A stretch of 64,000 nucleotides of DNA, taken from the NCBI RefSeq assembly GCF_013409365.1, contig NZ_JACCBA010000001.1, positions 868,001 through 932,000 on the forward strand. The letters are read 5' to 3'. A program made the position numbers and the translations under genes. This DNA is from Actinomadura luteofluorescens. Its GTDB lineage: Bacteria; Actinomycetota; Actinomycetes; Streptosporangiales; Streptosporangiaceae. The notes below the pieces were generated by a model that ran no database searches, was not told the DNA's origin, and was given only the letters and a program-made list of their open reading frames with translations. Below, piece after piece: positions 1,831 to 37,171 of the stretch (position 1 is its first letter; each line of letters starts with the position of its first letter).

Positions 1831-2020
1831 GCCGCCAGGCGAGCCGGAGCGATGCCAGCGATCGCCGCATTGCCGTTGAAGGGAGGCGCGCCAGCGCCGA
1901 CCGCCGAGAGCAATGCGATAAGCCCGTCCGGGATCGGCCAGCCGGGTCCTTGGGGCGGGGAAACGGGGGACGATTTCTTGGGTCGTGGGAATCTCATGCG
2001 GTGGTTGCGGAGAGGTGGCC

Positions 2021-4901: not shown

Positions 4902-6608
4902 TCAGTGCGTGCCCTTGGGGACTTCGGCGGCGAGTTCGTCCAGGTCGGCGCGGACGGCCTTGACCTCCCAGTAGAACCCGTGGTCCGCGGGGGCGCCGTC
5001 CACGGTGCGGACGGCGAACCGGCCGTCCGCCACCGCGGACGCGGCGAGTGGCGACAGTGGTTCGTCGGCCTCGAACTTCGGGGTGAGCTGGACGGTGCGG
5101 CCGTCCGGGCGGGTGAGCGCCTCGAAGTAGCCGGGCAGTTCGACGGTGGCCTTGCCATCCGCGAGCCGGCCTTCACCGCGGTAGTAGACGGCGTACTCGG
5201 GTCCTTCGACGGCGGCGTGGACGAGGTCGCGTTCGGCGGGCTCGACCGGGTGGTCGATGAGGAAGTGCTTGGCGCCCGCCCAGAGGTTGCCGTCGGCCAT
5301 CAGCTTGATCGGCCAGTTGTCGCGCTCGTAGCTGCCGACATAGACGGCGCCGTCGGCGAACAGGTCGAACGTGCTGATGCCGCCGCCGCTCCAGGACGGC
5401 TTGGTGTGGGCGCCGACGGTGAGCGTCCCGGCGGCCGGGGAGCCGCCGCCCCAGTCGGCGTTGATGTGGACGCCGCCCTTGTTCAGCAGGTAGAGGCGCT
5501 CCTCCCCCGCGATGTGCAGCCGCCCCTGGCCGAGGATGGCCTTGCCGGGCGCGTGGTACACGTCCTGCGCGAGCAGGTTCGCCTGGACGGTGAGGTCGCC
5601 GCGCGCCACGACGGCGTTCTCGAACGTGGTGCCGCCGCGGACGGTCAGCGCGTTGCCCCGTCCGACGATCGCGGCGGCGGTGACGTCGCGCGCGTGCAGG
5701 TCGGCGTAGGGGCGGGAGCCGAAGGCGTAGTCGAGGGAGGGCCAGTTGGTGCTGGGGTCGATGAGCTCGAAGCCGCGCCCGGCGCGGAAGGAGAGTTGGC
5801 CGTGCTGGACGCCGTGGCCCCAGAAGCCGAGCGCGGAGACGACCTGGCCGCTGTTGACGGTCGTGCCGTTGATCGAGCCGAGGTGGAGCATGCCGCCGGA
5901 GATGCGGAGCCGTTCGGCGCCGCCCTGGAGGAAGTCGATCGTGTCGCCGGCGTCGTTGTTGACGCCGATGAGCAGGGTCGTCTCCTCACCGCCGCGGACG
6001 TAGTAGCGGAGGAACGCCTCGTCGCCGGAGCCGCCGCCGGGGTCGGAGGGCCACTGGATGCCGGAGCGGCGGGTGTTCCCGGCCGTCGGTGTGATCGCGC
6101 CGCTGAGCACGCGGAGCCCGGCGGCGGCGCGGGACGAGGTGTCGACCGTCACGGTGCCGCCCTGCCGGGTGACGGACGCGAGGACGAGCGAGCGGCCCGG
6201 GTCGGACGGCGGGGACGCCGCGAACCTCAGCAGCCCCTCCTCGGTGAGGCGGGTCGCGCGGGCGACGCCGCCGTCGCCGTTGACGTCGGTCTCCCGTTCC
6301 AGCAGCGTGAGCGTCAGGACGTGCGTGCCGTCGCCGGGGAGCGTGAGGCGGGTGTCGTCGGGCAGCACGATCGGCATGCCGTCGGCGTCCACGGCGACGC
6401 CGGCGGTGACGACGACGTCGCCGCCCGCGGGGTTGACCGCCAGCCCGGACAGCACGCCGGAGGGCGACTGGGCGCGGGTCAGCAGGTTCTGCCGGGACAG
6501 CAGGTAGTCGAGGCCCTGCGCGAGGTCGGCCGCGCGCAGGAACTGGTAGTCGAAGTAGCGCGGCCGGGCCATCGGCAGGGCCGTGCCGTTCCGCCAGGTG
6601 ATGGTCAT
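4902..6608 (-). CDS. tail-fibre-like beta-rich protein, 568 aa
   Basis: The first ~90 residues contain RPRYFDYQFLRAADL and a segment on 'values' and 'defaults' (PAGGDVVVTAGVAVDADGMP), similar in style to N-terminal parts of phage or particle fibre proteins. The middle is a Gly/Thr/Val-rich repetitive beta region (SGGMLHLGSINGTT, ALTVRGGTTFENAVVARGDL), which suggests a trimeric beta-fibre. The C-terminus has KHFLIDHPVEPAERDLVHAA then VEGPEYAVYYRGEG, a block I associate with tail-fibre-like ends. There is no signal peptide. It is the last gene of the giant operon, 48 nt after the preceding stop, with GGAG upstream of ATG 6608. A role as a surface or particle appendage is inference. Confidence 0.6.
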   Translation of the reverse strand: MTITWRNGTALPMARPRYFDYQFLRAADLAQGLDYLLSRQNLLTRAQSPSGVLSGLAVNPAGGDVVVTAGVAVDADGMPIVLPDDTRLTLPGDGTHVLTLTLLERETDVNGDGGVARATRLTEEGLLRFAASPPSDPGRSLVLASVTRQGGTVTVDTSSRAAAGLRVLSGAITPTAGNTRRSGIQWPSDPGGGSGDEAFLRYYVRGGEETTLLIGVNNDAGDTIDFLQGGAERLRISGGMLHLGSINGTTVNSGQVVSALGFWGHGVQHGQLSFRAGRGFELIDPSTNWPSLDYAFGSRPYADLHARDVTAAAIVGRGNALTVRGGTTFENAVVARGDLTVQANLLAQDVYHAPGKAILGQGRLHIAGEERLYLLNKGGVHINADWGGGSPAAGTLTVGAHTKPSWSGGGISTFDLFADGAVYVGSYERDNWPIKLMADGNLWAGAKHFLIDHPVEPAERDLVHAAVEGPEYAVYYRGEGRLADGKATVELPGYFEALTRPDGRTVQLTPKFEADEPLSPLAASAVADGRFAVRTVDGAPADHGFYWEVKAVRADLDELAAEVPKGTH

Positions 6609-6656
6609 CGGTGTCTCCAGGAAGGTCGGTGGTGGGAGGGCTTCGCCCGGGGACGG

Positions 6657-8531
6657 TCAGCGGGGCGCGACGGCGTCGTAGCGCAGGCCGCTGGAGGCGG
6701 TGCCGCCGCCGGTGCGCTTGGCGCGGGCGAGCCACAGGTGCACCGAGCCGTCGGTCCAGCGGGCGAGCCGCCACTCGCGGACGACGCGGAGCCCGGCCCG
6801 TCCGACCTCCTCCTCGGGGACGGCGAGCCTCACCACCCGTCCGGTGTCGGGGGCGAGGGTCCAGTCGAGGACGCGGCTGTGGCCGATGATCGGCACGGGG
6901 GCCCCGCCCCGGGTGGGCTGCTGGAGCGGGACGCGCCGGAGGCGGACGCCGTCCGGCCGGCCGTCCTCCGGCGTCGGGACCAGCGGAACCCAGTTCTCCG
7001 GCACGGTCGTGGCGAAGGTGTAGGTCAGCTCGGGGAGTCCGGGGACGTCGGCGCGGGCCGGCACCCGGGCGCGCGGCACCTGGCCGTCCCGGTCGATGGG
7101 CTCGCCGGTGGCGCCGGTGACCGTCCGCTCGACGGCCCAGGCGAGGTTGGCGGTCTCGTCGCGCAGGAACCGCACCTCCTCGACGGGCGCCGAGGACAGC
7201 GTCGAGGACGTCGTCGGCGGCAGGACGAGCAGCGGCGACGGCGATTCGCCGCGGGCCGACGCGGGCCGGAACAGCCCCCAGCCCTGGCTGGTGCCGCCGC
7301 CGGGGCCCGTCGCGGGCACCAGCGTGCGGACGCCGAAGCTGTCGGTGACGACCAGCGAGCGGATCCGGGTGACCGAGCCGCTCGGCACGTCCACGGGGAT
7401 GACGAAGTGGTCGTTGCCGTAGACGGTGGCGTACTCCACCAGGACCATCCGGGCCAGGTCGGTCGGGCCGGCGCCGATCCGGCCGAGGTTGACGTCGGCG
7501 TCCTCCATCTCCCAGAACCGCGTCGCGGGCATGCCGGGGTAGGCGGCGCGAGTGGGGACGACGACCCGCGTGCGCCGCTCGGTGTCGGACGGCGCGTGCA
7601 GCGACGCGTCGGGGTCGTGGTCGAGGTGGTACCAGTCGAGCCGGTCGCCGCCGTACTCGGGCGCGGTCAGGACGGTCTCGCCGCCGGAGCCGGTGGCGGC
7701 GACCGCGAAGGCGTACTCCATCCGCTCCCGCTGCCAGGTGCGGACGTCCGGGCCGGGGGTGTCGACCAGCGGCAGGAATCCGTCCGGCGGCCACGGCGGG
7801 TCCTGCGCGGCGCCGCCGGGTGCGGGCGCCAGCACGCCGGGCAGCCGCATCAGGTGGCCCGGGTCGGAGGTGCCGGAGGGCCGCTCCCCCACCTGGAGCC
7901 AGTCCAGCCAGCCGGTGACGGCCGCGGTGACGGAGGCCGTCAGCTCGGCCGGGACGTTGACCGAGCCGGGGAACGCGCCCTTGGCGTAGTCGCGGAGCAC
8001 GTCCGTGCCGTGCGGTGCCCGGCCCGCCATGATCCGCAGGTAGCCGGCCGTCGTCTCGTCGGCGGCGGACGGGCCGTCCGCGGGCGGCCCCGGGATCGGG
8101 TAGCGGGCGACGACGGCCGCGCGCACCGCCCCGGCGCCGTGCTCGGACAGGAGGCGGAGCAGCTCCTGCCCGATCTCGGCGGCCCAGCGCAGGTCGTGGG
8201 CGCCGCCGGTGTCCTCGGCCTCGACGACCGCCTCCAGCGGCCGCGCCGCTGGCATCGGCGCCGCCGGGCCGCCGGCGGGCCCGTACCGCACCTCGGTGAA
8301 GCGCGCGGACTCGACGTCGAGCCTGGCGAGGACGGGGCTGCCCGCGTCCTCGCCCTGGAACTCGCCGAGCTGCCACTGCCGGGCGAGGAACCAGAGCGGG
8401 TCGGCGGTGCGGGCCTCCAGCGCGGGGCTGAGGTCCTCGGCGCGGGTGCGCGGCTCCAGTCGGCTCCAGGTGGTGATCGACGGGACGTGTGGTGGCTTCT
8501 CGGCGTCCGGGAGGAGGTCGGGAACGGTCAT
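6657..8531 (-). CDS. conserved protein of unknown function, 624 aa
   Basis: The start ATG 8531 overlaps the stop of the upstream gene by 4 nt (ATGA), indicating translational coupling. The N-terminus carries a compact Trp-rich signature, [20 protein letters not shown] followed by [21 protein letters not shown] take this as a conserved family motif but cannot attach a biochemical function to it. The rest is mixed alpha/beta, with a region ([20 protein letters not shown]) resembling a structural beta domain. There are no transmembrane helices, signal peptide or recognised catalytic motif. Its fixed place between two other giant genes suggests a structural or scaffold role in a common complex; this is inference. 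Confidence 0.65.
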
Positions 8532-11500
8532 CGGATCCCCCCGGGGGTGGACGGAGCGGCGGACGGAGCGGTGAGCGTTGCGGCGGGAGCGGTCCCGTCG
8601 GGTGGCGGCGCGTCCGGAACGAAGTCGGTGGAGGTCTGCGGCTCGGTCAGGTTCACCGGGACGTAGGTGCCGGGCAGGAACTGCCCGGCCGCGCCGAGCG
8701 AGTCGATGTCGGCGGCGCGGGCGCGGGCCAGGTCGAAGGCCTCCTCGAGCGTCTGCACGAGGGCGTCGGGCTGCCAGGCGGGCGCGCCGTCGGCGGGCAC
8801 GGCAAGCAGGACGGCCTGGGGCGCGGTGGCGCCGGGCGCGTCGTACTCGAAGGTCAGGCCGGTCTCCTGCCGGGCGGCGGGCACGACCTCGGTCCACTCG
8901 TCCACGAGGAGCCCGTGGACGGGCTTGGCGGGGTCGAAGTCGCCGAGGGTGACCACGACCATCGAGACGACGTCGCCGTCCGGTGCGCTCTCCCCCGCCC
9001 AGCGGTCGCCCGGCTTGGAGGGGAACTGGACGGCGCGGACGGTGGGGGGCAGCGTCGCGGCCCCGGCCCCGGTGAGCGCCTCGGTGTAGGCGAGCGCCTT
9101 CTGGAGCGTCCCGACCTTCGGCCGCACCCGTCCGTACTTGGCCAGCCACCGGCGGACGGCGTGCGCCGTTCCGCCCTCCAGCTCGTTGCCGGGGGCGAGC
9201 GTGGCGGCGAGCGCGGCCGGGTCGGGTGCCGCGGTGCTCTGGAGGACGGGGAGGTCCTGGGCGAACAGCGCCCGGAGCCGTGCGGTCTGGAACTCGCGGC
9301 GCCGGGCGGGCGATCCCGACGGCAGGTCGTAGTCGGCGGGGACGCAGGTGCAGGCGTCGAGCGTGCAGTTCAGCGCGCGGCCCCGGTACTCGGCGACGAT
9401 CCGGCAGTGCGCCAGCCTGCGGTGCAGGAGCTCCGTCCGCGCGGACGCGGCCTGCTCCATGACCTGCTGCGCGGCTCCGGTCCGCGGCGGCGGGGCGACG
9501 GTGCCGAGCACCCCGAACCCGGCGGCGCTCGCCAGGGCCTTGCGCACCTCGGTCTCGGTCGTGGCGGCGAGGCCGGTGATGCTGGTGCCGACGATCTGGA
9601 GGGCGAAGTCGGCGCGGTTCCTGGTCGCCTGGTCGAAGGTGCTCTCGGCGGTGGCGCCGGGCCCGGCGAGGTCGGCGGCCTCAACGGGGCGGGACTGGGT
9701 GAGCAGCCGCCGCACCGCCGAGGCGGCCTCCAGGAACTCGGCGAGCGACACCTGGTCGGCCGGCCAGGTGGGGTCCCGCTCGAAGCCCGGTTCCAGCGCC
9801 CAGTCCTCGCCGATCTTCGCGGCGTCGCGGCGCGGCCAGGCGGCCGCCTCGATCCGCCGCTCCAGTTCGGCGCCGGCGTCCGGGCGCGCGCCCCGCACCG
9901 GGGCGGCGACGTGGTCGATGGCCGGGATCTGGAGGAAGTCCAGGCTCAGCGGTGGCTGGACGACGGTGCGCGCGCCGTCGGGCGAGCGCCATGTGTTGCG
10001 CCACTTGACCCGCCAGTTCGGCGGCAGCAGCGCGGTGGCGACGCCGTCGGCCGGGGCGGCGGCGAACACGCGCACCTGCTCGGCGATCGGGGCGCCCCAG
10101 CGCAGCTTCTCGAACCGGGCGTCGTAGTTGAACAGCAGCAGGACCCGGTGGGTGACGGCCGCGCCGCTGTCGGCGGTGCGGCAGAACTGGAGTTCCGGCG
10201 GGGTGGAGCCGCCGTGCGCGGACGCGTCGAGGGCGGCGGCGGCGCGGGTGGCGTTGCCCTGGGCGATCTGGTGGACGCCCTCGGCGAGCAGCGCGTCGCC
10301 CACCGCGTCGATCGCGTCCGCCAGGTCGGTGAGGACGTCCTCGACGGCCGTCCGGTCGCGGACGGGGAGTCCCGCGAGAACCGCGTCCAGGTCTCCGGCG
10401 CCGTAGAGGCGGTGCAGTTCCAGGCCGTCTGTCACCGCGGTCGACTCGATCGCCGGGACGGCGGTGGCGTCGGGGGTGACGCTGTGCGCGCGGATCGGCG
10501 CGGCGTCCCGGAACACCGGCAGGTGCTGGTCGAAGGGGCCGCGCGGGTGCTCGTGCAGGCCGCGCTCGAACCGGTAGCCGAGCAGCAGGCCGAGCGGCTG
10601 CCCGTCGCGGACGCCCGCGATGAGCTGCTCCGCCAGCCGCACCCGCCGCGACGTGAGCTCGACCGCCAGCGGGTTGCCGCCCGCGTTCGCGGCGCCGCCG
10701 TCGCCCGAGGCGCCCGCGCCGCCGTGGGAGCGCCAGCCGCTGCGCAGCACGGCCGCGGTGACGGCTTGGGTGAGCGACGGCGCGTGCACGTGCCCGGCCT
10801 CGTCCGGTGCCGGGTAGAGCGGCCCCGCGGGGACGCCGTCCGGCAGCGGGACCTGGTCCCCGGTTCCGGCCGGCGGGACCAGGTTCGCGACCCAGCCGTA
10901 GCCGCCGATGTGCACCCCGGCCTTCTCCCCGGCGGCACGCCCGCGGACGAGCCCCTCCAGCCGCCGGGTGGCGAACGAGGTGATCCAGGCGTCCAGCCGG
11001 TGCGCGGTCAGCGCGAGCGTCCCGGCGACCTCGCGTTCCAGCCGCCCCGGCGTGAGACCGGGTCCCGCGAGCCTGGTGAGGGTCGCGCGGAAGTCGCGGA
11101 TGCCCTCGGTCACGGTCGCGTGCCGTGTGTCGCCCGGACGGTCGGCGGCCGCGAGGTAACCGCCGACCGTCAGGGCGGGATCGGTGCCGCCGCCGGGCAG
11201 CGGGAGGGGCTGCCTGAGGCGCCGCGCGAGCGTGGAGGTCACCTCGCGCGGGAAGATGTCGATCAGCTCGGGGTCGGGGACCTGCCCGACGCCGTCGATC
11301 AGGGCGGCGGCGTTGGAGTGCTCGGCCAGCAGCGCCGCGCGCAGCAGCCGCCGGAAGAGCGGCGCCGGACCGGACGGCGCGGGCGCCTCGTCCGCGCGGA
11401 GGCCGGGCGCGGCCAGCTCCTGAAGGTAGGCGCGGATCGCCGCCGCGTCGGTGCCCGCGATCGGCGTGGCGAGCCGCATCGACGTGTCGGCGAACACCGC

Positions 11501-13024
11501 CAGGGCCAGCGGCGGGTCGTCGGCGGTCCCGAGGCCGAGGTCGGCGAGCAGCCGCCGGGACGGCCCGGCCACCTGCTCCCGCCAGCCGCCGCCGAGCTCC
11601 AGGCGGGCGAACCGCCACAGCCAGGCGACGTACTCGTTGCCGAGCATCGCGCGGACCCGCATCTCGCGGGGCAGCGCGTCGGTCGCGAGGATGTCGAGCA
11701 TGGTGCCGTCCGGGTCGTCCAGGCCGGGACGGATCCGCGGCACCGGCGACGTCAGCCACACCCGGTCGAGCAGCCGGGTCAGCAGGTCCACGGCCTTCGC
11801 CTCGCCGGGCCCGGCGGCGGCCCAGCGGCGCATCGCCGCGACCGGCAGCACGCCGTAGACCTGGCGGCCGACGCGCAGCGTCGGCAGCGGCCCGTCCGGG
11901 TGGACGTGCGCGACGAAGTGCGACCGGATGGCGGGCAGGTCCGAGTCCCGGCTCGTCTCGTGGCCGTCCATGAGGTGGCGGACGAGGTAGTCCAGGGAGG
12001 CGGGGAACAGCAGCCGCCGCACCGCGGCGCCGGTCCGGCGCAGGTCGTCGCCGCCGTCCGGGGCCCGGCCGAGGGCGGTGGCCGCGCCGGACGGGGCGGG
12101 CGCCCGCCGCGTCCGCTCCAGCAGGTCGCCGGTCCGGGAGACGAGCGGGAGCGCCAGCGCCTCCGCGAGCAGCGCCGCCGCGCTGTCCGGGCCGACGGCC
12201 GTCGCGGGCGCGCCGGTGACGCGCGCGTCCGCCGCCGTCTCGCGGGACCTGGGCGCGTACCCGCTGGACACGGTCTCGGTGTTGTTGGTCGGCGTGCCGG
12301 GCGGGACGAAGCCGAGCCCGACCGTCGCGGCCTGCGCCTCCAGCAGCTCCGCCAGCCTCGCGGCGGCCGTCTCCGGCGCGGCCCCCTCGTCCACGCCGTA
12401 GACGACGAGCAGCTCGATCTCCTCGGTGACGCCGTCCACGGCGACCGCCATCCCGGCGTCCACCGCGGCGGGGAAGTCGACGAGCCACCGCATGCCTTCG
12501 TCGACCGCGGCGTCCTCGTCGGTGAGCCCGGCGAGACCCTGCGGCGCGCGGGGGGACGGGCCGACCGCGAGGTCCGGACGGACCTCCTTGGCGAAGTCCG
12601 CCGCGATGACGCGTCCGCTGGCCGTGCGGGCGGCGAGCCGCCACCGGGTGGGCATCGCGCGCGCGTGGGGCGCCTCCTCCCAGGTGTCGGTGCGTTCGAG
12701 CGGTCCGGGGAACTTGCCGGTGTCGTCCGGCTGCATGACCCGCGCGATCCAGGTCGCGCGGGGTGCGCCGTGATAGAGGACGAGTTCCTCCCAAGCGGCT
12801 TCGGGCTCGTTCTTCCGCGTCCAGTAGCGGCGGCCGGCGTCCCGCTCGGTAGGGGTCAGCTTCGCCTCGTGCGAGTCGACGTGGATCTGGTCCGGGTAGA
12901 TCCGGATGAGCAGCCGGGAGCCGTCGAACCTCGTCTCCAGGCGGACGGGCAGCAGCGCCACCGGGTACCGGGCCGACAGCGACCAGCCCGTGGCGGGCAC
13001 CTGGCCGGACAGTGCGAGATTCAT
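8528..13024 (-). CDS. giant conserved protein of unknown function, 1498 aa
   Basis: ATG 13024 overlaps the upstream stop by 4 nt (ATGA). Residues ~17-40 read [20 protein letters not shown] then [18 protein letters not shown]. This looks like a conserved signature, with an Arg-rich beta segment and a conserved Asp/His pair. Long helical stretches follow; the last third has alternating helices and beta segments. No signal peptide, membrane segment, nucleotide-binding loop or protease triad is visible. Its length and lack of low-complexity sequence indicate a real multidomain protein. I do not recognise a function. The neighbouring 1683-residue protein also has an N-terminal segment of similar beta/helix style, so distant paralogy is possible but unproven. 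Confidence 0.65.
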
Positions 13025-16000: not shown

Positions 16001-18072
16001 CAGACGAAGCCGGCGCTCGGCGCGTCCCGGTACCGCTCCCACAGGTTCCCGTCGGCGGTGCGGACCAGCACCTGCGGCGCCCCGCCGGTCCGGATCGCGG
16101 CCCCGGCCGACCGGACGGGCTGTCCGCTCGGCGGCGTCCCGTGGTCGAGCCATAGCCAGCGGTCCTCGACGAAGCGCCGCTGGAACAGGTGGCCGTCGTT
16201 CGCCGCGACGAAGAACCCCCCTTGCACCATGTCCCCGCCTTCGGACGCGAGCGTCCGCGGCGTGTCGTCCGACACGGCGGCGGGGCTCGCGGCCGGTAGT
16301 TCCCCGGGGATGCTCCCGGCGGCCACGCCGGCCCGGGTGGTGTTCCACCAGGGGTCGGCCATCGCGGCGCGGATGGACGCCTCGTCCACCGAGCCCAGCA
16401 ACCGGCCCGCGACCTTCGTGAACGGCGTTCCCCCGGCCGGGACGTCCGCCGGAGGGACGGCGGTGTCGCCCGTCGCGAGCCGCTCCACCGGGGCCGGCAC
16501 GGTGCCCGCGCGCGACGCCAGCGGGCCCCGGGGGCGCAGCAGCCGCCGCATCGGCACGGACGTGGCCGCCCGCAGCCCGGCGTTCCCGGCCAGCTCGTCG
16601 CCGACGCTCGGCCCGCCCTCCACGTCGCCGCCCACGGGACCGTCGCCCTTCGGGCCGTCCGGCCCCTTCCGGCCGATGCCCGCGCCCCTCCGGGCGGCGG
16701 TCGCGTCCGGCGCCTCGATCTCCCCGAGGACGGGGCCGGTGACGGCGAGCAGCTGCGCGTCGGTGAGGGCCCCGCCGGGCTGCTCCGGGTCGAGCCGCTT
16801 GCCGTGGAGGGCGGCGGACACGTCACGCGCCGCCTGCCCTCGCAGGAGCACCTCGTTCATGTCCCGGACGGCGGCCGCCGCCGCCCACGCGGCCGCCGCC
16901 AGGTCCTCCTGGTGCCGCTGGATGATCTCGGTCCCGAGCGCGGCCGCGGCCCGGTAGCGCGGGTCGAGGTTCAGTTCCCGCAACCACTTCGGCTCGCCCG
17001 CGGGGAGGTCCACCTCCGCCGTGTGGACGGCCCCGTACAGGGGCGGGGTGAGCCACTCGTCGGTGTCCTGGAGCAGCTCCTCGATCACCTCCCGCCAGGA
17101 CGCGCGGACGCCCTCTTCCCATACGGTCGGCTCCATCACCGGCGACGACAGCGCGCCCTCGAAGCCGAGCACGGACGTGCCCACCCGGCCCGCGGGCTCG
17201 GTGGCGGGCAGCCCGCCGCCCGGCGCGGAGATGTCCACCGGCCGCTTGCCGACCTCCGGGGGCAGCGGGCGCGCGCGCAGCCGCCGGACCAGGGACTCGA
17301 AGTCGCCCTCCGGTCCCGTGGTGAACGACCAGTGGTGGTAGGCGGGCAGCACGACGACGTCCTGCGGGGACGGTTTCGGGGAGCCCGGCCCCCACGCGGG
17401 GACCAGCGTCCCGGTCTGGGCGGGCCGCCCGCCGCTGCCCGCGAGCCGTCCGGCCTCGAAGGCGGGGACGACGGCCGCGTGGTAGCGGGTCCCGGCCTGG
17501 AGCCTGCGCGGGCAGACCAGCCGCGACAGCGTGCGGTCGGGATGGTCGCGCAGGACGTCCGCGACGTCGCCGTCCTCCCCGGTGAGCAGGACCTGCGCGT
17601 GCGCCCACGCCCACGACTCGGCCAGCGGCGGCAGCTCGCGGACCGCGCAGGTCAGTGTCGGCAGCGCCCCGGCGGGCTCGGCGATCTCGCCGTCCTCCGC
17701 CGGGACGGCGACGAGCACCAACCAGGGGCGGAGCCGGCCCTGCGCGTCGGCCTCGGCCGGGGTGAACGCCCACGGCAGGTCCGGGCGGTCGAACTCGACC
17801 GCGGCGAACAGGGTGTCCTCGGCGCCGTCGGTGCCGGGCGCCGGAAAGCTCCGGATGACCTGCCGGTCGTCCAGGCCGGTGACGTCGCCGGGCCCGTGGA
17901 TCGCCGCGGTCGTGTCCGCCGGGATCACCCTCCCGTCGTCGGCGGTGAAGCCGACGTGCAACGGGATCTCGCCGCGCAGCTTCGGCAGGGCGCCGCTCAG
18001 CGGGTCGGCGCCGGTGACGGCGCGGGCCAGGCCGTCCCGGACCCAGGGCAGGAAACGCAGTCCGGCGGCCAT
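13021..18072 (-). CDS. giant protein with lectin-like and VCBS/FG-GAP-like beta-propeller regions, 1683 aa
   Basis: ATG 18072 follows the upstream TGA by a single nucleotide. Residues 1-560 and ~1290-1683 look like one scaffold (for example [20 protein letters not shown] near 1454). Between them is a large insertion. Residues ~610-950 have short repeats such as [18 protein letters not shown] and [11 protein letters not shown], typical of PLL- or fucolectin-like propellers. Residues ~965-1280 have repeats such as [19 protein letters not shown] and [18 protein letters not shown], typical of VCBS/FG-GAP propellers that bind Ca2+ through Asp-rich loops. The propellers suggest binding of carbohydrate or another ligand. 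No signal peptide is seen. The function of the scaffold is unknown. Confidence 0.7.
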
Positions 18073-18073
18073 G

Positions 18074-21000
18074 TCAGGACACCTCCGAGTGGTCGGTCGA
18101 GTGGTCTGGGCGCTCTGGATGGTCGATGCGCGCGGCGAGGGGCGGCGCGGCGAAACGGGCCGGGCCGCTGGTGCGGGTCCTCGCGTTCGCGGCGGGCCCG
18201 TTCCCGGCGAACACCGCGAGCAGGCCGTCGCCGAAGGCCCTGCCGTCGCCGTCGCGGCCCGCGCCATCGCGGGCGGCGTGGTGGGCGGGCACGGCGTCCC
18301 CCATGGGACGGGCCGCGGTGTCGGGGTCGTCGATGATGATCCGGTCGTAGGACCCGTCGTCGCCCGCGGTCGTGAAGACGGTCAGCGCGGCGTCGGGCAC
18401 GTCCGTCCCGGCGGGCGCGACGAGCCGCCGTCCCGCCGCGCGGCGCTCGGACTGCGGACGCTCGACCATCTCCGCTTGCGTCAGGTCGAAGAACTGGCCC
18501 GGCGCGTAGTAGTCGTCGATCGTGTCGCCGAGCCCCCCGGCCTCCCCGCCGACCGTGAACGAGGTGATGTCGAAGCGGCGGGGCCCCTGGACGCGGCTGG
18601 TGCCGAGGCGGTCCAGGTCCACGCCGAGCGGCAGCAGGTTCTGCCGGACGCCGAGGGTCGCGCCCGGGTGCATGAGGACCTGCCCCGCGGGCAGCTCCGG
18701 AGTGCTCAGGGCGGCCATCTCCCCGCCGCCGCCGGGGGTGGCGACGTCCCAGGTCCCCGGCTGCTTGAGGGCGTCGAGCAGCAGGTCGGCGGCGTTGACG
18801 AACGTCGGCCGGTTCTCCTCGGTCGGGTCGCCGAGCACCTTGTCGAACCGCTTGCTGATGTCCCAGAACAGGAGGTGGACGGTCACCTCGCCGTGCGCCC
18901 GCCATGGGCCGGGGCCGCTGATGCCGATGAGCAGCGTGAGGGCGAGCAGGGTCTTGTCGCCCCACTTCACCGACACGGTCGCGCCGAGCTCCGCGGTCAG
19001 CCAGAACGGCTTGAACTGGATCAGCGCGTCCAGCCAGGCGCGGCCGTCCACGACCAGTTCCCAGAACGCGAAGTGCAGGTAGAGCGCGCCGCCGAACTGG
19101 ACGCTGTTGCTCGTCACGGCGAGGTACGCCTCGACGCGGAACAGGTCGCCGCTCTTGTTGAGGTTGATGGAGAAGCGCTTCAGGTCGGGGAAGCCGGTCG
19201 GCTTCGGGAACGCCGGGTGGAAGCCGCCGATGGAGACCGCGAAGTTCTTCTCGCCCTTCCAGCGCAGCCGCAGCGCCATGTCGCCGCTGACCGGACGCCC
19301 GAACAGCTTGGAGTCGACGAGGCTGCCGTCGAGCGACACCTCGCCCGCGCCCGGGTCGAGCGTCCCGACCACGTCGAGCTGGAACCTCCCGGCCTCCTGG
19401 AAGTTGATCACCAGCCGGCCGAGCACGACCAGCCGGATCGGCTCCGGAAACTCGATCATGATGCCGAGGTCGGCGCGGACGGTCCCGGCCAGCCACTCCA
19501 GCCGCGCCATGATCCCGACGAGCGTGCCGGTCGGGTCGGGCGGGAACATCCGCCCGAGCGTCGCGATCACGTTGGGCGCGTTGCCGACCGGGTCCGCCGG
19601 GAACAGCACCGCGTCCAGGCTCCGGGACCGGGTCGCGTTGCGCAGCTCCTCCAGGTTCGCGCGCCGGTTCAGGCCGACGATCGCCCCGAGCCCGGTCAAC
19701 GTGATCCCGGCCGGCAGCACCAGCCCCGGACGCCACTGGAACGACCCGGACACCAGCAGCGAGTAGCTCTCGCTGCCGTCCCGCTCGGTGAACGGCCTCC
19801 CGTCCGCCGTCTTCGTGTTGAGGACGGCGACGGCTTGGAGCCGGAACCCGCTCGACCCGGGCGCGATACTGCTCGCCATCCCGAACTGGAACGCCCCGGA
19901 GTACATGCCGCGCGGCTCGTCGATCGACAGGTAGCCGCCACCGTCCACCACACCGAGCACGAGGTGCAGCCCCAGCCCGGACGGCGGCTTGAACCGCGGC
20001 GCGAGGTTCGCCTTGCCGAGGTTGCCGCCCTCGTCCGGGAACGTGAGGTCGGCGGCGAGACCGACGTCCTCGATCACCGCGGTCAGGCCGCCCACCCGCA
20101 CCGACAGCGTCGTGGTCGCCCAGGCGGTGACCGCCTCGTCCGCCAGCGACGCCTCAACCCCGATCCGCACCGTCTCCGGGCTGATGCCGAGCACCGTCGC
20201 GTGCACCGGGAACTCCGCGATCAGCCCGGCGGCGCCCGTCAGGTGCAGCCCGGCCCGATGCGACCACGCCACGCCCAGCTCGAACGGCACCGACACCTTC
20301 TCGTGCGGCAGGACCCGCTTGACGAACCCGTCGCCGTCACCGCCCGCGATGACGACCTCCGCCCGCCCGGCCCGGACACCGATCTCGATGTCGTCGCGTC
20401 CGGTGCCGAGCGCGGCGCGGAGCGCGAGCACCAGTTCGCCGACCGCCAGGTGCACCCCGTCGGGCGCGCCCACGACCCACGCGGGCTCGTCCGGCGCGGA
20501 GATCCGCGCCACCTCGGCCGCCACCCGCACCGCCGGGTCTGCGCCCGCCACCGTCACCCCGCCCGGCCCGAACGCGAACGCCTCCGCGGACACGTCCATG
20601 TCGCCGCTGACGTTCCAGCCCCCGGCCCTTCCGACGACGTGCGCCGCGATCCGCGGGACGACGATCAGCGCCGGGCGTCCCTCGATGAGCCCCAGCCCGA
20701 AGGTCGCGCCGAGCTCCACCTCGTCGCCCGCCCCGTCCGGGACGCGTGCGCGCACCGACAGCAGGTGCCCGGCGAGCCGCTCCCCGTCCGCCCCGAGGTC
20801 GGGCCCCACCCCGGGCTTGACGCCGTAGGCGGCGTCAAGCCCGAGCCCGCGCAGCAGCGCCGCCGCCTTCGGGAAGATGCGCGCCGCCGCGGCGTCGATC
20901 GCCTCCGGCGTGTCCATCCCCTCCGGCACGTACAGGGCGCGGAAGTACGCCCCGGGATCCGACAGCAGGTCGATGAGCCGGCCGAGGTCGAAGCCGGCGC

Positions 21001-21556
21001 GGCGCCGCGGCAGCCGGATCGGGTTGTCGCCGGGCGGCATCGGCGGGCTGGGGTTCTCCTGGTCCGCCGCGAGCGTCGCCACGCCGAGCATGACGGCGGC
21101 CGGCAGCGTCCACCGGGCGCGCCGCGCGAGGTAGGCGGTCGGCAGGTAGTCGAGCAGGTCGCCGAGCATGGTCTCGTACAGCTCGTCCGGGACCTCGCCG
21201 CCGACCCGCGGCGGCAGCGCCTTCACCGGCCCCGCGGCCGCGCCCAGCTTCTCGAACGCCGCCTTGTAGCCCTTGAGCGAGTCGCGCGGCAGGTCGGCGG
21301 CGGCCTCGGCCGCGTCCGTGACGGCCTTGCCGATGCCGTCCGCCCACTCCTGGAACGCCTGCGAGTCGTACCCGATCAGCGGCCCGAGGTCCCACCCCAG
21401 CGCCCGCAGCAACTGGTTCCGCCGCCACGGATCGGCCGCCGCCCGCGCCGGCTCCACGAACAGCGCGAACTCGGCGAAGATCTGCGCCAGGACGCTCCTC
21501 TCCACATCCGCCGCCTCAGCGTCTGCCGGGCCTGGGGTGTGCGTCGGGTCGGTCAC
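18074..21556 (-). CDS. DUF6603-like beta-rich giant protein, 1160 aa
   Basis: GTG 21556 is chosen because AAGGAGG lies 6 nt upstream and the codon overlaps the preceding stop (GTGA); a longer in-frame extension reads as low-complexity Arg/Pro. The N-terminal ~250 residues are helical. The central and C-terminal part, residues ~300-900, is built of alternating beta segments. It includes GLGAIVGLNRRANLEELR then SLDAVLFPADPVGNAPNVIA around 620-665, which I recognise as the pattern of the DUF6603 family (function unknown). The Gly-rich amphipathic strands resemble large beta-helix or lipid-channel-like proteins, but this is only a resemblance. No export signal is visible. Confidence 0.65.
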   Translation of the reverse strand: MTDPTHTPGPADAEAADVERSVLAQIFAEFALFVEPARAAADPWRRNQLLRALGWDLGPLIGYDSQAFQEWADGIGKAVTDAAEAAADLPRDSLKGYKAAFEKLGAAAGPVKALPPRVGGEVPDELYETMLGDLLDYLPTAYLARRARWTLPAAVMLGVATLAADQENPSPPMPPGDNPIRLPRRRAGFDLGRLIDLLSDPGAYFRALYVPEGMDTPEAIDAAAARIFPKAAALLRGLGLDAAYGVKPGVGPDLGADGERLAGHLLSVRARVPDGAGDEVELGATFGLGLIEGRPALIVVPRIAAHVVGRAGGWNVSGDMDVSAEAFAFGPGGVTVAGADPAVRVAAEVARISAPDEPAWVVGAPDGVHLAVGELVLALRAALGTGRDDIEIGVRAGRAEVVIAGGDGDGFVKRVLPHEKVSVPFELGVAWSHRAGLHLTGAAGLIAEFPVHATVLGISPETVRIGVEASLADEAVTAWATTTLSVRVGGLTAVIEDVGLAADLTFPDEGGNLGKANLAPRFKPPSGLGLHLVLGVVDGGGYLSIDEPRGMYSGAFQFGMASSIAPGSSGFRLQAVAVLNTKTADGRPFTERDGSESYSLLVSGSFQWRPGLVLPAGITLTGLGAIVGLNRRANLEELRNATRSRSLDAVLFPADPVGNAPNVIATLGRMFPPDPTGTLVGIMARLEWLAGTVRADLGIMIEFPEPIRLVVLGRLVINFQEAGRFQLDVVGTLDPGAGEVSLDGSLVDSKLFGRPVSGDMALRLRWKGEKNFAVSIGGFHPAFPKPTGFPDLKRFSINLNKSGDLFRVEAYLAVTSNSVQFGGALYLHFAFWELVVDGRAWLDALIQFKPFWLTAELGATVSVKWGDKTLLALTLLIGISGPGPWRAHGEVTVHLLFWDISKRFDKVLGDPTEENRPTFVNAADLLLDALKQPGTWDVATPGGGGEMAALSTPELPAGQVLMHPGATLGVRQNLLPLGVDLDRLGTSRVQGPRRFDITSFTVGGEAGGLGDTIDDYYAPGQFFDLTQAEMVERPQSERRAAGRRLVAPAGTDVPDAALTVFTTAGDDGSYDRIIIDDPDTAARPMGDAVPAHHAARDGAGRDGDGRAFGDGLLAVFAGNGPAANARTRTSGPARFAAPPLAARIDHPERPDHSTDHSEVS

Positions 21557-24500
21557 GGTTGCCTCCTTGGGAGGTCGTCGGTGTCCGGGCGCAGGGAGTT
21601 CCGGCCGCCGGAGAGGTTGCGGTCGGCGGGGGGCAGGGCCTCGATCGGGAGCGTGTAGGGCGTACCGGTCGGCCACGTGGGCCAGTTCCGGACGGCCTCG
21701 ACCGGCGCGCCGACCCCGGCGCGGGTCGCGGTGGCGCGGGCCAGCGCGGTGATGAGTGCGGTCTCGTGATCGCCGGTCCAGGTGTTCGGGGCGCCGGAGA
21801 AGTCCGGGCCGAGCGCCTTCGCGGCGGTGAGGACCTCGTGCAGGGGCGTCGCGGCGCGTCCGGCGAAGCGGCTCTCGGGCGGCTCGGCCGCGCCGGGCTG
21901 GGCGGCGGACAGCACGAACCCGGGTTCGAGCAGGTGCAGGCAGGCGAGCATCCCCGCCGCGCGCTCGGAGGTGAACAGGTCCCCGACCCGGGCGGGACGC
22001 GGGTTACCGTCCGCGCCGGGCACGGACCCCACGGTCGCGGGCGCCGCAGGGCCGTCCCAGGGCGCGCCGAGCAGGTCGTGCAGCCGCTGCCGGGCCGGTT
22101 TCCAGAAGCTCCGGCGAACGGCGGCGTCCGTCCGGGTGGCGGCGACGAAGCGGTACATCCAGTGCCAGGCGCGGAAGATCCCGAGCGAGAACTCGTGGGC
22201 GAGCGGCGCGCCCGGCTTGCCGTTCTCGGCGGTGAGCGTGGGACGCGACCGCGGTGTCCGCAGCCCGGTGTCGAGCAGGCCGGCGCCGTCGGCGCCCCAG
22301 CCCGGCAGCGGGACGAGCCCGGCGCCGCCGGTCAGCGCGTCGAACGCGTCCCGGTCGGTGGCGCGCAGGAACGCGATGTAGGCCCACAGCTCGCCGGACC
22401 ACTCGCGGTTCTGCCGGACGGCCGTGACCGGCGGGAACGGCCCGTCGGCGGCCCAGCCGAACGGCCCGAGGCGCAGCAGCGCGGCGTCGGCGGCGGTGAC
22501 GGCGTCGAACCAGGCCCCGGCCGTCGCCTCGGCGACCGCGCGGAGCACCTTGAACGTCGAGAGCTGCTTCGCGACGTGCTCGTCCGCGCGGCGGGCCACG
22601 AGCTGCGCGAGCGTCGGCCCGGACGAGGTGTCCGGGAGCCGCGGCAGCAGATGCTCGGGCAGCAGCTCCGAGCGGCCCGGCAGCACCGGGCCGGGCCCGT
22701 CCGGATACGAGGGGTCGGTGGCGATCGAACCGAGCGGCGTCAGCTCGGGGTGGCCCGGCGGCGCCGGGCCGACGACCGGACCGGCGATGTCGCGGGCGAA
22801 CAGCCGCGTGGACGCGGACACCTGCCCGGCGCCCCACACGTTCGGGTCGACCAGCTCGGCGAGCGCCGTCCCGGACATCCGCCAGCCCTCGACCACCACC
22901 GGGCACCGCCAGCGGTTCCGCTTCCACTTCGCGATCGTGAGCTGGGTCGGCAGGTCGGCGACGCCGCTGACCGGGCCGACGTACCGGTCGGCGTCCGGGA
23001 CGTCCACCGGGTGCAGGCGGTCGGAGTAGCGGGCGGCGTCACCGTCCTCGCGGGCCGCGCGGGAGCGCCGCGCGTACGTCTGGAACTCCCGCACCGCCCG
23101 GACGGTCTCGGTGTCGTACGTCCCGTAGACCGCCGGCGGGGCGAGGAAACCGAGTTCGAGCAGGTCCTTCTGGAGCTGCTCCACGACCTTGCCCGCGATC
23201 AGGACGGCGGGGCGCCGCAGCCCGTCGTAGACGGCGGGCCCGGACGCGATCGCGTCGTGGTCGAACTCCCGCAGGACGAACCCGTACGGGATGTCCTCGG
23301 TGAGGGACGGGCCGAGGTCGAGGCTCACCTCGTACGTCGTCAGCGGGCCCGGTTCCGGCCGGTCGCCGAGATGCCACCACAGCGTCTGCGTGGCCTTCTT
23401 GTCCTCGCCCTGCCCCCAGGAGAACGACAGCTCCCCGAGGTTGCAGTGACCGACGATCTCCTTGCCGGCGCCCCAGTCGCCGGTGTAGCCGTCGAAGTCG
23501 CGGGACGCCGCCAGGTACTCGGCGAGCGCCTCGGGCCCGGACTTCCCGGTCGGGTCGCCCACCGGCACCGCTCCGGTGGCGCTCCGCTTCGGGTCGGCCT
23601 CGTCATGCCGGACGAACCGCGTCGCCAGCCGCCACTCGGGCTGGACGGTGAGCATCCGCCCCTCGCTCAGCTCACCGACGGACGGCTTGCCCTGCACGGA
23701 CCAGCCGACCGGGTCGCCGCCGGTCAGCGGCACCTCGACGCCCACCTGGCGCCGCGCCCCGCCGCGGTCCTCCCCGGACCAGCCGACATAGTGCAGGTGC
23801 GGGACGGTGTCGCCGACCCCGTAGCCCGTCTTGTGCAGCAGCCTCGTCAGGCGGGCCTCATTGCGCAGCGCGCTGGCGACGAACGTGGCGAGCACCGCCT
23901 CCGTCCGGTTCTCGCCCTCGTACGGCTTGGACCGGTCGGGTCCGCACGCGTACGGCAGCACCGCCGAGTACCGCGACCGCTCCGCGAAGCCGTAGTGGAT
24001 GTCCCCGCCGAGCAGGACGAGCCGGCGCCGCCGCACCCCGTCGGCGTCCTTCTGCGCCGCCGCGCACAGCCGCCCGATCATCTTGTGCAGCGACGCGTCG
24101 TCGTGGAACCAGGCGTCCTCCGCGTCCGCCTCGTACCGGCCGCCCCACGCCTTGGCGAGGGGCTGGACGATCTGCTCCACGACCGGAACGCCGAGGAACG
24201 CGGTCGGCTGCGCGACGATCGTCACCGCGTCGTCCCCGAGCGGCGGCTCGGCGGCCACCATCGCGTCGATCGGTCCGTCGTCCAGCAGCAGCACGCCCCG
24301 GTTGCCGACGTAGCGGCGCCACGTCCGGGTGTCGAGGACGACGAGCTGGTAGCGCGGCCAGGTGATCGTGTAGTGGTAGGTCAGCATGTCCGGCGCAGGC
24401 GGCTTCACCTGGACGCCGTACTTCAGCTCCAGCGGCAGCCCGAGCCCGGTGCGCAGCGCCGCGTCGTCTGCCGCGCCCGGCGCGGCGAGCCAGCGCTCCA

Positions 24501-25740
24501 AGGCCCCGAGCACCGCGCGGCCCGGCGTGCCGTCCGCGAACCGCTCTGGCGTGTTGCCCCAGTGCTGGAACACCGCGTACGCGGCGAGTGCGTTGCGCAC
24601 GACCCGCCGCCCGAGCCCGTCCGCGATGACGGCCTTGGTGATCCACTCGGTGCTCATGTTCCAGTCGTCGGAGACGTCGTGGTCATCGAAGACCATGTAC
24701 GTCGGGACGTTCGCCAGCGCCCGCCGCACCAGCGACAGCCCCTCCCGGAACTCCTCCAGCACCGGCGCCTCCTCGCGCCAGCGCTCGAACCGCTCCGCGA
24801 TCGCCTTCTGGTGCTTGAACGGCCGGTACGGCAGTCCCTGGACGATCAACCGGTACACGTCCTCGCCGGGCTTGCGCCGCGCCGGGTCCTTCAGGATCGC
24901 GGTGTCCTCGGGGAAGACGTCCTCGAACCTGGGGACCGGCCCGGTCCACAGCACGTCCGACCACACCATCAGGTACATCCCGACGTACTCGCGGAACGAC
25001 ATCAGGTGGCTGTCGCAGTGCCCGGACGTGAAGTGCGCCTGCTTGAGCAGCACGTCCTGCCGCAGGCCGGGACGCAGCGCCGTGTCGGCCGGATCGCCCT
25101 CCGCGGGGAGCGTCTCGGCCGCCATCCCGAGCCCGGCGCTCGCCTGCTGGATCATGACCAGCAGCGGGTCCGACACGTTGTCGGCGTAGATCTGGTCCCC
25201 GGTCATGATCATCTGGTGCGGGCGCAGCAGCGGATCTCCGGCGCTCACCCGGACGATGTGGTCGAGCGCGGGCAGCAGGTCCTTGCCCTCCGCGTGCGGC
25301 CGGCGGCACGACCCGTGGAAGATCCGCAGCTTGCTCGGATCGTCCGGCGGCGTCGGGAAGCTCGGCCACCCGGGACCGTCCGGATAGGCCAGCGCCGCCT
25401 TGGCCTCCGCCGGATCGGCGTGGACGACGCCCGCCGCGAACAGCGACGTCCGCTGACCGCCGAAGTCGAGGTCGTAGCCGAACAGCGCCCCGGCGCCGAA
25501 CGTCCCGCGCACGGTCACCGCCACGACGTGCAGCGACTCCCCCAGCCGGACGGTCGGCGCCGCCGCCGACACCTCCGGCGCGCCCCGCGCGTACCCGGGC
25601 GCCGGCCCCAGCGGGAACACCCGCAGCGTGGCCTGGCAGTGCTCCCGCACCCCGACGACGACGGTCACGCTCGTCCGATCGACTCTCCGGACCATCGGCC
25701 CGAACACGACGAACGGTGTGGTGGAAGCGATCTCGCTCAA
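21553..25740 (-). CDS. PhoD-like metallophosphatase fused to peptidoglycan-binding-like and unknown C-terminal domains, 1395 aa
   Basis: Residues ~1-650 are a PhoD-type phosphatase domain. Metal-binding motifs are GDQIYAD near 182, FDDHDVSDDWN near 353 and LLGGDIHYGF near 578. Family enzymes hydrolyse phosphodiesters using Fe/Ca. Residues ~853-888 (LLELGFLAPPAVYGTYDTET, then VRAVREFQTY) match a PG_binding_1-type module. The final ~400 residues are helical and unrecognised, with a Trp-rich stretch FRAWHWMYRF. TTG 25740 is the chosen start, with AGGGGG about 7 nt upstream; residues begin LSEIASTTPFVVFGPMVRRV. No Tat signal is visible, unlike exported PhoD enzymes. First gene of the operon; it overlaps the next gene by 4 nt. 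Confidence 0.8.
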   Translation of the reverse strand: MSEIASTTPFVVFGPMVRRVDRTSVTVVVGVREHCQATLRVFPLGPAPGYARGAPEVSAAAPTVRLGESLHVVAVTVRGTFGAGALFGYDLDFGGQRTSLFAAGVVHADPAEAKAALAYPDGPGWPSFPTPPDDPSKLRIFHGSCRRPHAEGKDLLPALDHIVRVSAGDPLLRPHQMIMTGDQIYADNVSDPLLVMIQQASAGLGMAAETLPAEGDPADTALRPGLRQDVLLKQAHFTSGHCDSHLMSFREYVGMYLMVWSDVLWTGPVPRFEDVFPEDTAILKDPARRKPGEDVYRLIVQGLPYRPFKHQKAIAERFERWREEAPVLEEFREGLSLVRRALANVPTYMVFDDHDVSDDWNMSTEWITKAVIADGLGRRVVRNALAAYAVFQHWGNTPERFADGTPGRAVLGALERWLAAPGAADDAALRTGLGLPLELKYGVQVKPPAPDMLTYHYTITWPRYQLVVLDTRTWRRYVGNRGVLLLDDGPIDAMVAAEPPLGDDAVTIVAQPTAFLGVPVVEQIVQPLAKAWGGRYEADAEDAWFHDDASLHKMIGRLCAAAQKDADGVRRRRLVLLGGDIHYGFAERSRYSAVLPYACGPDRSKPYEGENRTEAVLATFVASALRNEARLTRLLHKTGYGVGDTVPHLHYVGWSGEDRGGARRQVGVEVPLTGGDPVGWSVQGKPSVGELSEGRMLTVQPEWRLATRFVRHDEADPKRSATGAVPVGDPTGKSGPEALAEYLAASRDFDGYTGDWGAGKEIVGHCNLGELSFSWGQGEDKKATQTLWWHLGDRPEPGPLTTYEVSLDLGPSLTEDIPYGFVLREFDHDAIASGPAVYDGLRRPAVLIAGKVVEQLQKDLLELGFLAPPAVYGTYDTETVRAVREFQTYARRSRAAREDGDAARYSDRLHPVDVPDADRYVGPVSGVADLPTQLTIAKWKRNRWRCPVVVEGWRMSGTALAELVDPNVWGAGQVSASTRLFARDIAGPVVGPAPPGHPELTPLGSIATDPSYPDGPGPVLPGRSELLPEHLLPRLPDTSSGPTLAQLVARRADEHVAKQLSTFKVLRAVAEATAGAWFDAVTAADAALLRLGPFGWAADGPFPPVTAVRQNREWSGELWAYIAFLRATDRDAFDALTGGAGLVPLPGWGADGAGLLDTGLRTPRSRPTLTAENGKPGAPLAHEFSLGIFRAWHWMYRFVAATRTDAAVRRSFWKPARQRLHDLLGAPWDGPAAPATVGSVPGADGNPRPARVGDLFTSERAAGMLACLHLLEPGFVLSAAQPGAAEPPESRFAGRAATPLHEVLTAAKALGPDFSGAPNTWTGDHETALITALARATATRAGVGAPVEAVRNWPTWPTGTPYTLPIEALPPADRNLSGGRNSLRPDTDDLPRRQP

Positions 25741-37100: not shown

Positions 37101-37171
37101 GCAACCGAACGTGCCCGTGATCGCGGGGAATACGCGACCGCCGACACACGGATGTCTCATTTATCGGCAAA

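Follow-up and report, generated by a model that had tools for sequence, protein, structure and literature searches.

A conserved four-gene DUF6603 cassette with an exchangeable enzyme gene at a locus of Actinomadura luteofluorescens

The genome of Actinomadura luteofluorescens (9.62 Mb, one contig) was analysed over a stretch of 64,000 nucleotides, referred to here as the window. Positions 4902-25740 of the window carry six end-to-end minus-strand genes coding for proteins of 568-1683 amino acids each and 6,928 amino acids in total. The genes, named G1 to G6 from the 5′ end of the operon, are the following:

G1, 21553..25740, minus strand: 1395 amino acids; PhoD-like metallophosphoesterase; the exchangeable "head" gene
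G2, 18074..21556, minus strand: 1160 amino acids; DUF6603 protein with a helical N-terminus followed by a long amphipathic beta-meander
G3, 13021..18072, minus strand: 1683 amino acids; conserved core protein with an FG-GAP/propeller-like insert in mid-protein
G4, 8528..13024, minus strand: 1498 amino acids; conserved core protein of a family without a name
G5, 6657..8531, minus strand: 624 amino acids; conserved core protein of a family without a name
G6, 4902..6608, minus strand: 568 amino acids; fibre-like accessory protein with a CIS13-like N-terminus and a C-terminus resembling phage proteins

A first-pass annotation had described six tightly coupled minus-strand genes at these coordinates, and the re-called genes agreed with it, except that its total of 6.3 thousand codons was too low. 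Overlaps of 4 nucleotides join G1 to G2, G3 to G4 and G4 to G5, while G2 and G3 are separated by 1 nucleotide and G5 and G6 by 48. The start of G1 is a TTG at 25740 with a poor ribosome-binding site, and an alternative ATG is located at 25695. A codon-position GC filter was passed by five of the six frames, G5 failing in its stop-to-stop frame, and comparison with up to three related loci gave ratios of nonsynonymous to synonymous substitution rates (dN/dS) of 0.25-0.43, which correspond to purifying selection. These results, together with a gene order that is kept across phyla, indicated that the six genes are not the product of chance. A hydropathy scan, made without a signal-peptide program, detected neither a signal-like N-terminus nor a transmembrane helix in the six proteins. 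The window proteins were compared with the Pfam, NCBIfam, PHROGs and PADLOC libraries, and matches were reported at E<=0.1.

G2, G3, G4 and G5 are a fixed four-gene cassette that evolves as a unit in many bacterial phyla and in haloarchaea. At least 1525 relatives of G5 were found at E<=1e-5 (7,996 candidates scored), the closest named ones being from Actinomadura, and 80 loci were kept from 340 relatives in species genomes. According to record titles, these loci belong to Actinomycetota, Acidobacteriota, Verrucomicrobiota, Myxococcota, Nitrospirota, Pseudomonadota, Bacillota, Chloroflexota, Cyanobacteriota and Goldiibacteriota. G4 lies on the same strand 5′ of G5 in 79 of the 80, with a median gap of 32 nucleotides between the matched parts (maximum 888), and the remaining locus has only 214 bases of upstream sequence, which leaves no room for it. 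The upstream sequence was long enough to look for G3 in 58 loci, and it precedes G4 in all of them; G2, in many cases truncated where the locus stops, was detected in 47 of these. The pairwise distances of G3, G4 and G5 over 64 loci are correlated (r 0.94-0.96; label-shuffle maxima 0.17), as are those of G2 and G5 (r 0.89; 36 loci, no shuffle run). Among 14 plasmid records with G5, eight were read and seven keep the order; they come from Streptomyces, Rhizobium and the haloarchaea Salinigranum, Halalkalicoccus and Halobellus, with some core genes split in the Rhizobium and Halobellus plasmids. The Salinigranum operon opens with a G1 homologue, so that the five-gene order G1-G5 is found in both domains. 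The annotation had set its single-system proposal against the case of homologues that are scattered and never neighbours. The reverse was observed, and the co-occurrence kept in other phyla and in haloarchaea makes it near certain that the cassette is one system.

Searches that started from DUF6603 gave a similar picture. The family was found in 12 of 396 Actinomycetota, 5 of 100 Nitrospirota and none of 14 control genomes, and in 22/22 and 29/32 of the genomes reached through G5. Fifteen stretches around DUF6603 hits were inspected: seven have G3-G4-G5 downstream and another five have G3 before the stretch or contig ends. In the other three (L123, L128 and L131), the large genes that follow DUF6603 are barely or not recognised by the G3-G5 models and possibly represent a diverged second type of cassette. 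The distribution is patchy, with G5 in 6 of 40 genomes searched (its own included), five of the six from the same genus.

The three core proteins downstream of G2 resemble little that has been named. The two conserved unknowns of the annotation, G4 and G5, matched no family in the four libraries and are conserved across phyla. The propeller that it had placed in G3 was matched by FG-GAP_3 at 25.3 bits, just under the cut-off of 26.9. Many G3 relatives have about 860-980 amino acids and, judging from this length, lack the propeller insert. G3-G5 had no match among the sequences of solved structures, and a model of G5 (two plasmid rows dropped; predicted local distance difference test score, pLDDT, 79) matched no fold among PDB or viral structures at E<=0.001. 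The alignment of G5 includes a highly conserved segment at about residues 20-66. A 644-amino-acid protein, P0027, matches 41% of the G5 query with complete identity and perhaps comes from a near-identical strain with a frameshift.

The PhoD-like character assigned to G1 was upheld by its motifs and not by its Pfam score, which for PhoD (PF09423) was 25.4 bits, under the gathering cut-off of 27. An alignment of the window protein, 23 of the 29 PhoD-like genes called 5′ of DUF6603 and a single haloarchaeal gene showed that the SCR, GDxIYxD, DDH and GDxH motifs, which we take to be the metal-binding and catalytic motifs of PhoD, are invariant in all 25 rows. Therefore, G1 is probably an active metallophosphoesterase. 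Residues 851-889 form a peptidoglycan-binding domain (PG_binding_1; 31.1 bits, cut-off 23).

The position 5′ of G2 is swapped between enzyme families, of which the PhoD-like one is the most frequent. Automatic gene calls were made in 67 stretches 5′ of DUF6603, some of them belonging to second DUF6603 copies that were read on this side only. The preceding gene was PhoD-like in 29 and a different gene on the same strand in 22; 13 stretches, one of which (L166) also has no recognised G2, had no same-strand gene called, and three were too short. A family scan covered 16 of the 22 non-PhoD genes, and eight of them pass a Pfam enzyme cut-off:

Phospholipase D: L124, L137
M64 peptidase: L103, L129, L130
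Tyrosinase: L105
M23 peptidase: L118, where it adjoins a hemopexin-repeat gene
Beta-lactamase-like enzyme: L104

The other eight are not clear enzymes. Three match WD40 (L121), DUF4056 (L126) and DUF2515 (L100), two have sub-cut-off matches (L128, L161) and three have no family (L110, L132, L153). Two arrangements differ from those counted above: a LodA-like oxidase gene in L134 (around 7164-9998) is divergent and adjoins DUF6603, and the operons of L103 and L125 (Nitrospirota) have two DUF6603 genes with an 857-amino-acid gene between them, which in L103 is the one matching M64 peptidase.

G2 is a clear member of DUF6603 (PF20248; 354.5 bits, cut-off 27), as the annotation had proposed. Its AlphaFold2 model (pLDDT 80; predicted template modelling score, pTM, 0.54) consists of a helical N-terminus and a long antiparallel beta-meander with one hydrophobic face. 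The modelled sheet loosely resembles giant beta-barrels and the ApoB belt, with root-mean-square deviations (rmsd) of 10-14.

G6 is an accessory gene outside the core, since its relatives follow G5 in only 7 of the 80 loci. The annotation was right about a fibre-like end insofar as the N-terminus matches NCBIfam CIS13_fam (NF053767) over residues 14-93, weakly (37.4 bits, cut-off 370), and the C-terminus (residues 445-564) matches phrog_28536 and phrog_17490; G6 also matches Arthrobacter and Synechococcus phage proteins. CIS13 is a protein of contractile injection systems (CIS) that resembles a tail fibre; a BLASTP comparison with a similar-looking protein of a CIS cluster gave no match. The core of Actinomadura kijaniata (L020) is about 78-80% identical to that of the window, and no G6 was found there. 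In L064, L085 and L094, the core is followed by genes that look fibre-like by eye, from their repeats; these are of other kinds and have no NCBIfam match. Of 54 downstream genes listed, 18 were family-scanned together with three plasmid genes, and no family was common to more than two of those scanned. Accessory domains shift from one host protein to another by lineage, with FG-GAP occurring in G3 or G4, G5 having a lamin tail or a crystallin domain, and some DUF6603 proteins matching Kelch- or ricin-type accessions. In two Neobacillus loci (L050, L057), a propeller stretch like the insert of Actinomycetota G3 sits inside G4 instead. Directly beyond G6, and convergent to it, the window includes a large regulator of the AAA_16/LuxR type (GerE) at 1985-4861 (plus strand); a second one is located at 34242-37160 (minus strand).

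The annotation had stated that the set is not a CIS, and for this genome the statement is supported. The contractile sheath model PF04984, the only Pfam sheath model tried, had no match in the genome of the window; the same search gave matches in 3 of 14 known control genomes. No baseplate, tube or AAA ATPase family was found in the six operon proteins, and profile comparisons of G3, G4 and G5 with the gpJ-like baseplate protein of CIS, of low power with four CIS-side sequences, gave E values of 0.23-0.57 and no match. G5 had led to 54 genomes, and the sheath was then sought in 50 of them, leaving out G559, G565, G581 and G583, in which DUF6603 is absent or weak. It was present at E<=0.001 in 36 of the 50, above the Pfam cut-off in 28, and without a match in 14. 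In even draws from the two phyla sampled as background, it was found in 36/396 Actinomycetota and 15/100 Nitrospirota. DUF6603 genomes had it more often than the others in Actinomycetota (4/12 versus 32/384, p 0.017) and in Nitrospirota (4/5 versus 11/95, p 0.0016; at the cut-off 3/5, p 0.019). Of the four Actinomycetota that have both, two (G263, G305) show no recognisable G3-G5 at their DUF6603 locus, and requiring a recognisable G3 weakens the association (2/9 versus 34/387, p 0.19); among Nitrospirota of 3.5 Mb or more, p is 0.039. Eight sheath loci chosen among high-scoring matches were read, of which seven come from DUF6603 genomes. Visual inspection and BLAST clustering give them the look of CIS clusters, and no core homologue was labelled in the CIS loci read. 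The closest sheath and cassette on one contig are about 42 kb apart, and many are on separate contigs. The association at the genome level is suggestive only; lifestyle or genome size, and not a common machine, may lie behind it.

Taken together, we tentatively favour, at somewhat less than even chances, the explanation that the operon encodes one modular, enzyme-carrying, multi-protein assembly that contacts membrane or lipid and acts like a non-contractile effector particle. The six proteins would then form one particle or appendage. G3-G5 would serve as the scaffold, and the near-invariant, poorly modelled N-terminus of G5 may dock on a partner. The DUF6603 sheet could contact or insert into a membrane, or bind lipid, with the head enzyme as payload or working part, while the binding of a target or surface would fall to the fibre and to domains of the propeller, lectin, crystallin or lamin-tail type. 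Such an assembly would be made in the cytoplasm and either leave by lysis or act inside. That it would deliver the enzyme to an envelope, as an effector particle would, is the more specific form of the idea, and we hold it with the same reserve. Of the interpretation given in the annotation, the single co-conserved system and the absence of a CIS have stood, whereas the fibre lies outside the core and the phosphatase occupies an exchangeable position.

Several observations weigh against the particle explanation. The complex, its release and its target are all proposed from the genes. A same-strand head gene was not called in 13 of the 67 stretches, and therefore an enzyme partner may not be obligatory; half of the 16 scanned non-PhoD heads are not clear enzymes, and the gene calls are automatic. 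The fold matches of G2 are loose, with the rmsd and pTM values given above, amphipathic strands occur in soluble beta-sandwiches too, and the single hydrophobic window of the protein (1.84 at residue 611) falls within the modelled sheet. The fibre is present in few lineages, a plasmid of S. anthocyanicus (L016) carries G5 alone, and 3 of the 15 stretches found through DUF6603 have no or only a weak G3-G5 match.

The main rival, which we consider unlikely, is an extracellular or cell-surface enzyme scaffold, in which lipid- or envelope-associated G2-G5 proteins would display a scavenging enzyme without attacking other cells; PhoD would release phosphate and the other heads would break down lipid or protein. 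Several head enzymes are hydrolases or oxidases, a role at the envelope would fit the PhoD-like and peptidoglycan-binding domains, and the hosts, as read from record titles, are mainly environmental organisms. However, the hydropathy of the six window proteins reveals no signal-like or transmembrane helix, and part of the family has a fibre-type module. A cytoplasmic lipid- or polymer-associated body, in which DUF6603 would surround lipid like the ApoB belt, G3-G5 would make up the coat and the head would be the processing enzyme, is improbable: the variety of tyrosinase, M23 and M64 heads and the fibre are ill-suited to an internal body, and the match to ApoB is loose.

We give slightly less credence still to a cassette that works together with a CIS encoded at another place in the genome, either helping it or serving as an alternative load. 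The sheath frequency in cassette genomes, its enrichment in both phyla, the CIS clusters read and the CIS13-like N-terminus of G6 argue for it. On the other hand, the window's genome and 14 of the 50 cassette genomes lack a sheath match, the Actinomycetota enrichment fades when G3 is required, genome size is a confounder, and the two sets of genes lie far apart with no core homologue labelled among the CIS loci. A remnant of a prophage or tailed-phage module, to which the C-terminus of G6 could point, is close to refuted. The viral-record searches covered G5, G4 and DUF6603. G5 gave a single 48-residue fragment, at a contig end (L119), in 2.9 million viral contigs, and DUF6603 was absent from the 50,697 phage records searched. 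The only G4 match in phage records was an unverified scaffold with the whole cassette, DUF6603-G3-G4-G5, labelled "Bacteriophage sp." (MT835531.1; L181); its neighbouring genes look bacterial by eye, and it is probably a mislabelled bacterial scaffold. In the library comparisons, the six proteins matched neither the TcA, TcB or TcC Pfam families of the Tc (ABC) toxin complex nor any PADLOC model of anti-phage defence.

In the open-access literature searched, no paper naming DUF6603 or PF20248 and no description of a fixed four-protein cassette with an exchangeable enzyme were found. Its four giant proteins, of which three belong to unnamed families, occur in about ten bacterial phyla and haloarchaea. 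The cassette may represent an undescribed class of non-contractile enzyme-carrying particle of bacteria and archaea, with a four-protein core in which the giant DUF6603 beta-sheet would insert into membranes or bind lipid, a load of one of several interchangeable enzymes, and interchangeable binding domains or fibres for aiming, a proposal we put forward with considerable caution. If the cassette does build a particle, it would be a new kind of molecular machine beside the contractile injection systems; if not, it would still be a widespread and previously unrecognised enzyme-scaffold system.

Compared with known systems, G2 belongs clearly to a family (PF20248) whose function the database lists as unknown. 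G1 keeps the PhoD motifs and departs from that family in its sub-cut-off score, its lack of a signal-like N-terminus by hydropathy, its C-terminal extension with a peptidoglycan-binding domain, and its being encoded with a DUF6603 core. The predicted long antiparallel meander of G2, with one face hydrophobic, is reminiscent of LptD, FimD, SprA and ApoB100, although the fit is loose and the sheet region gave no sequence relative. Moreover, a classical Gram-negative outer membrane is absent from hosts such as Actinomadura and haloarchaea. The operon differs from the extracellular contractile injection systems (eCIS) in that its genome has no sheath match, its six proteins include no tube, baseplate or ATPase family, and its core appears unrelated by the tests run. 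It resembles eCIS in being a large multi-gene set with exchangeable effector-type genes in both bacteria and archaea, and the N-terminus of its fibre has a weak likeness to CIS13.

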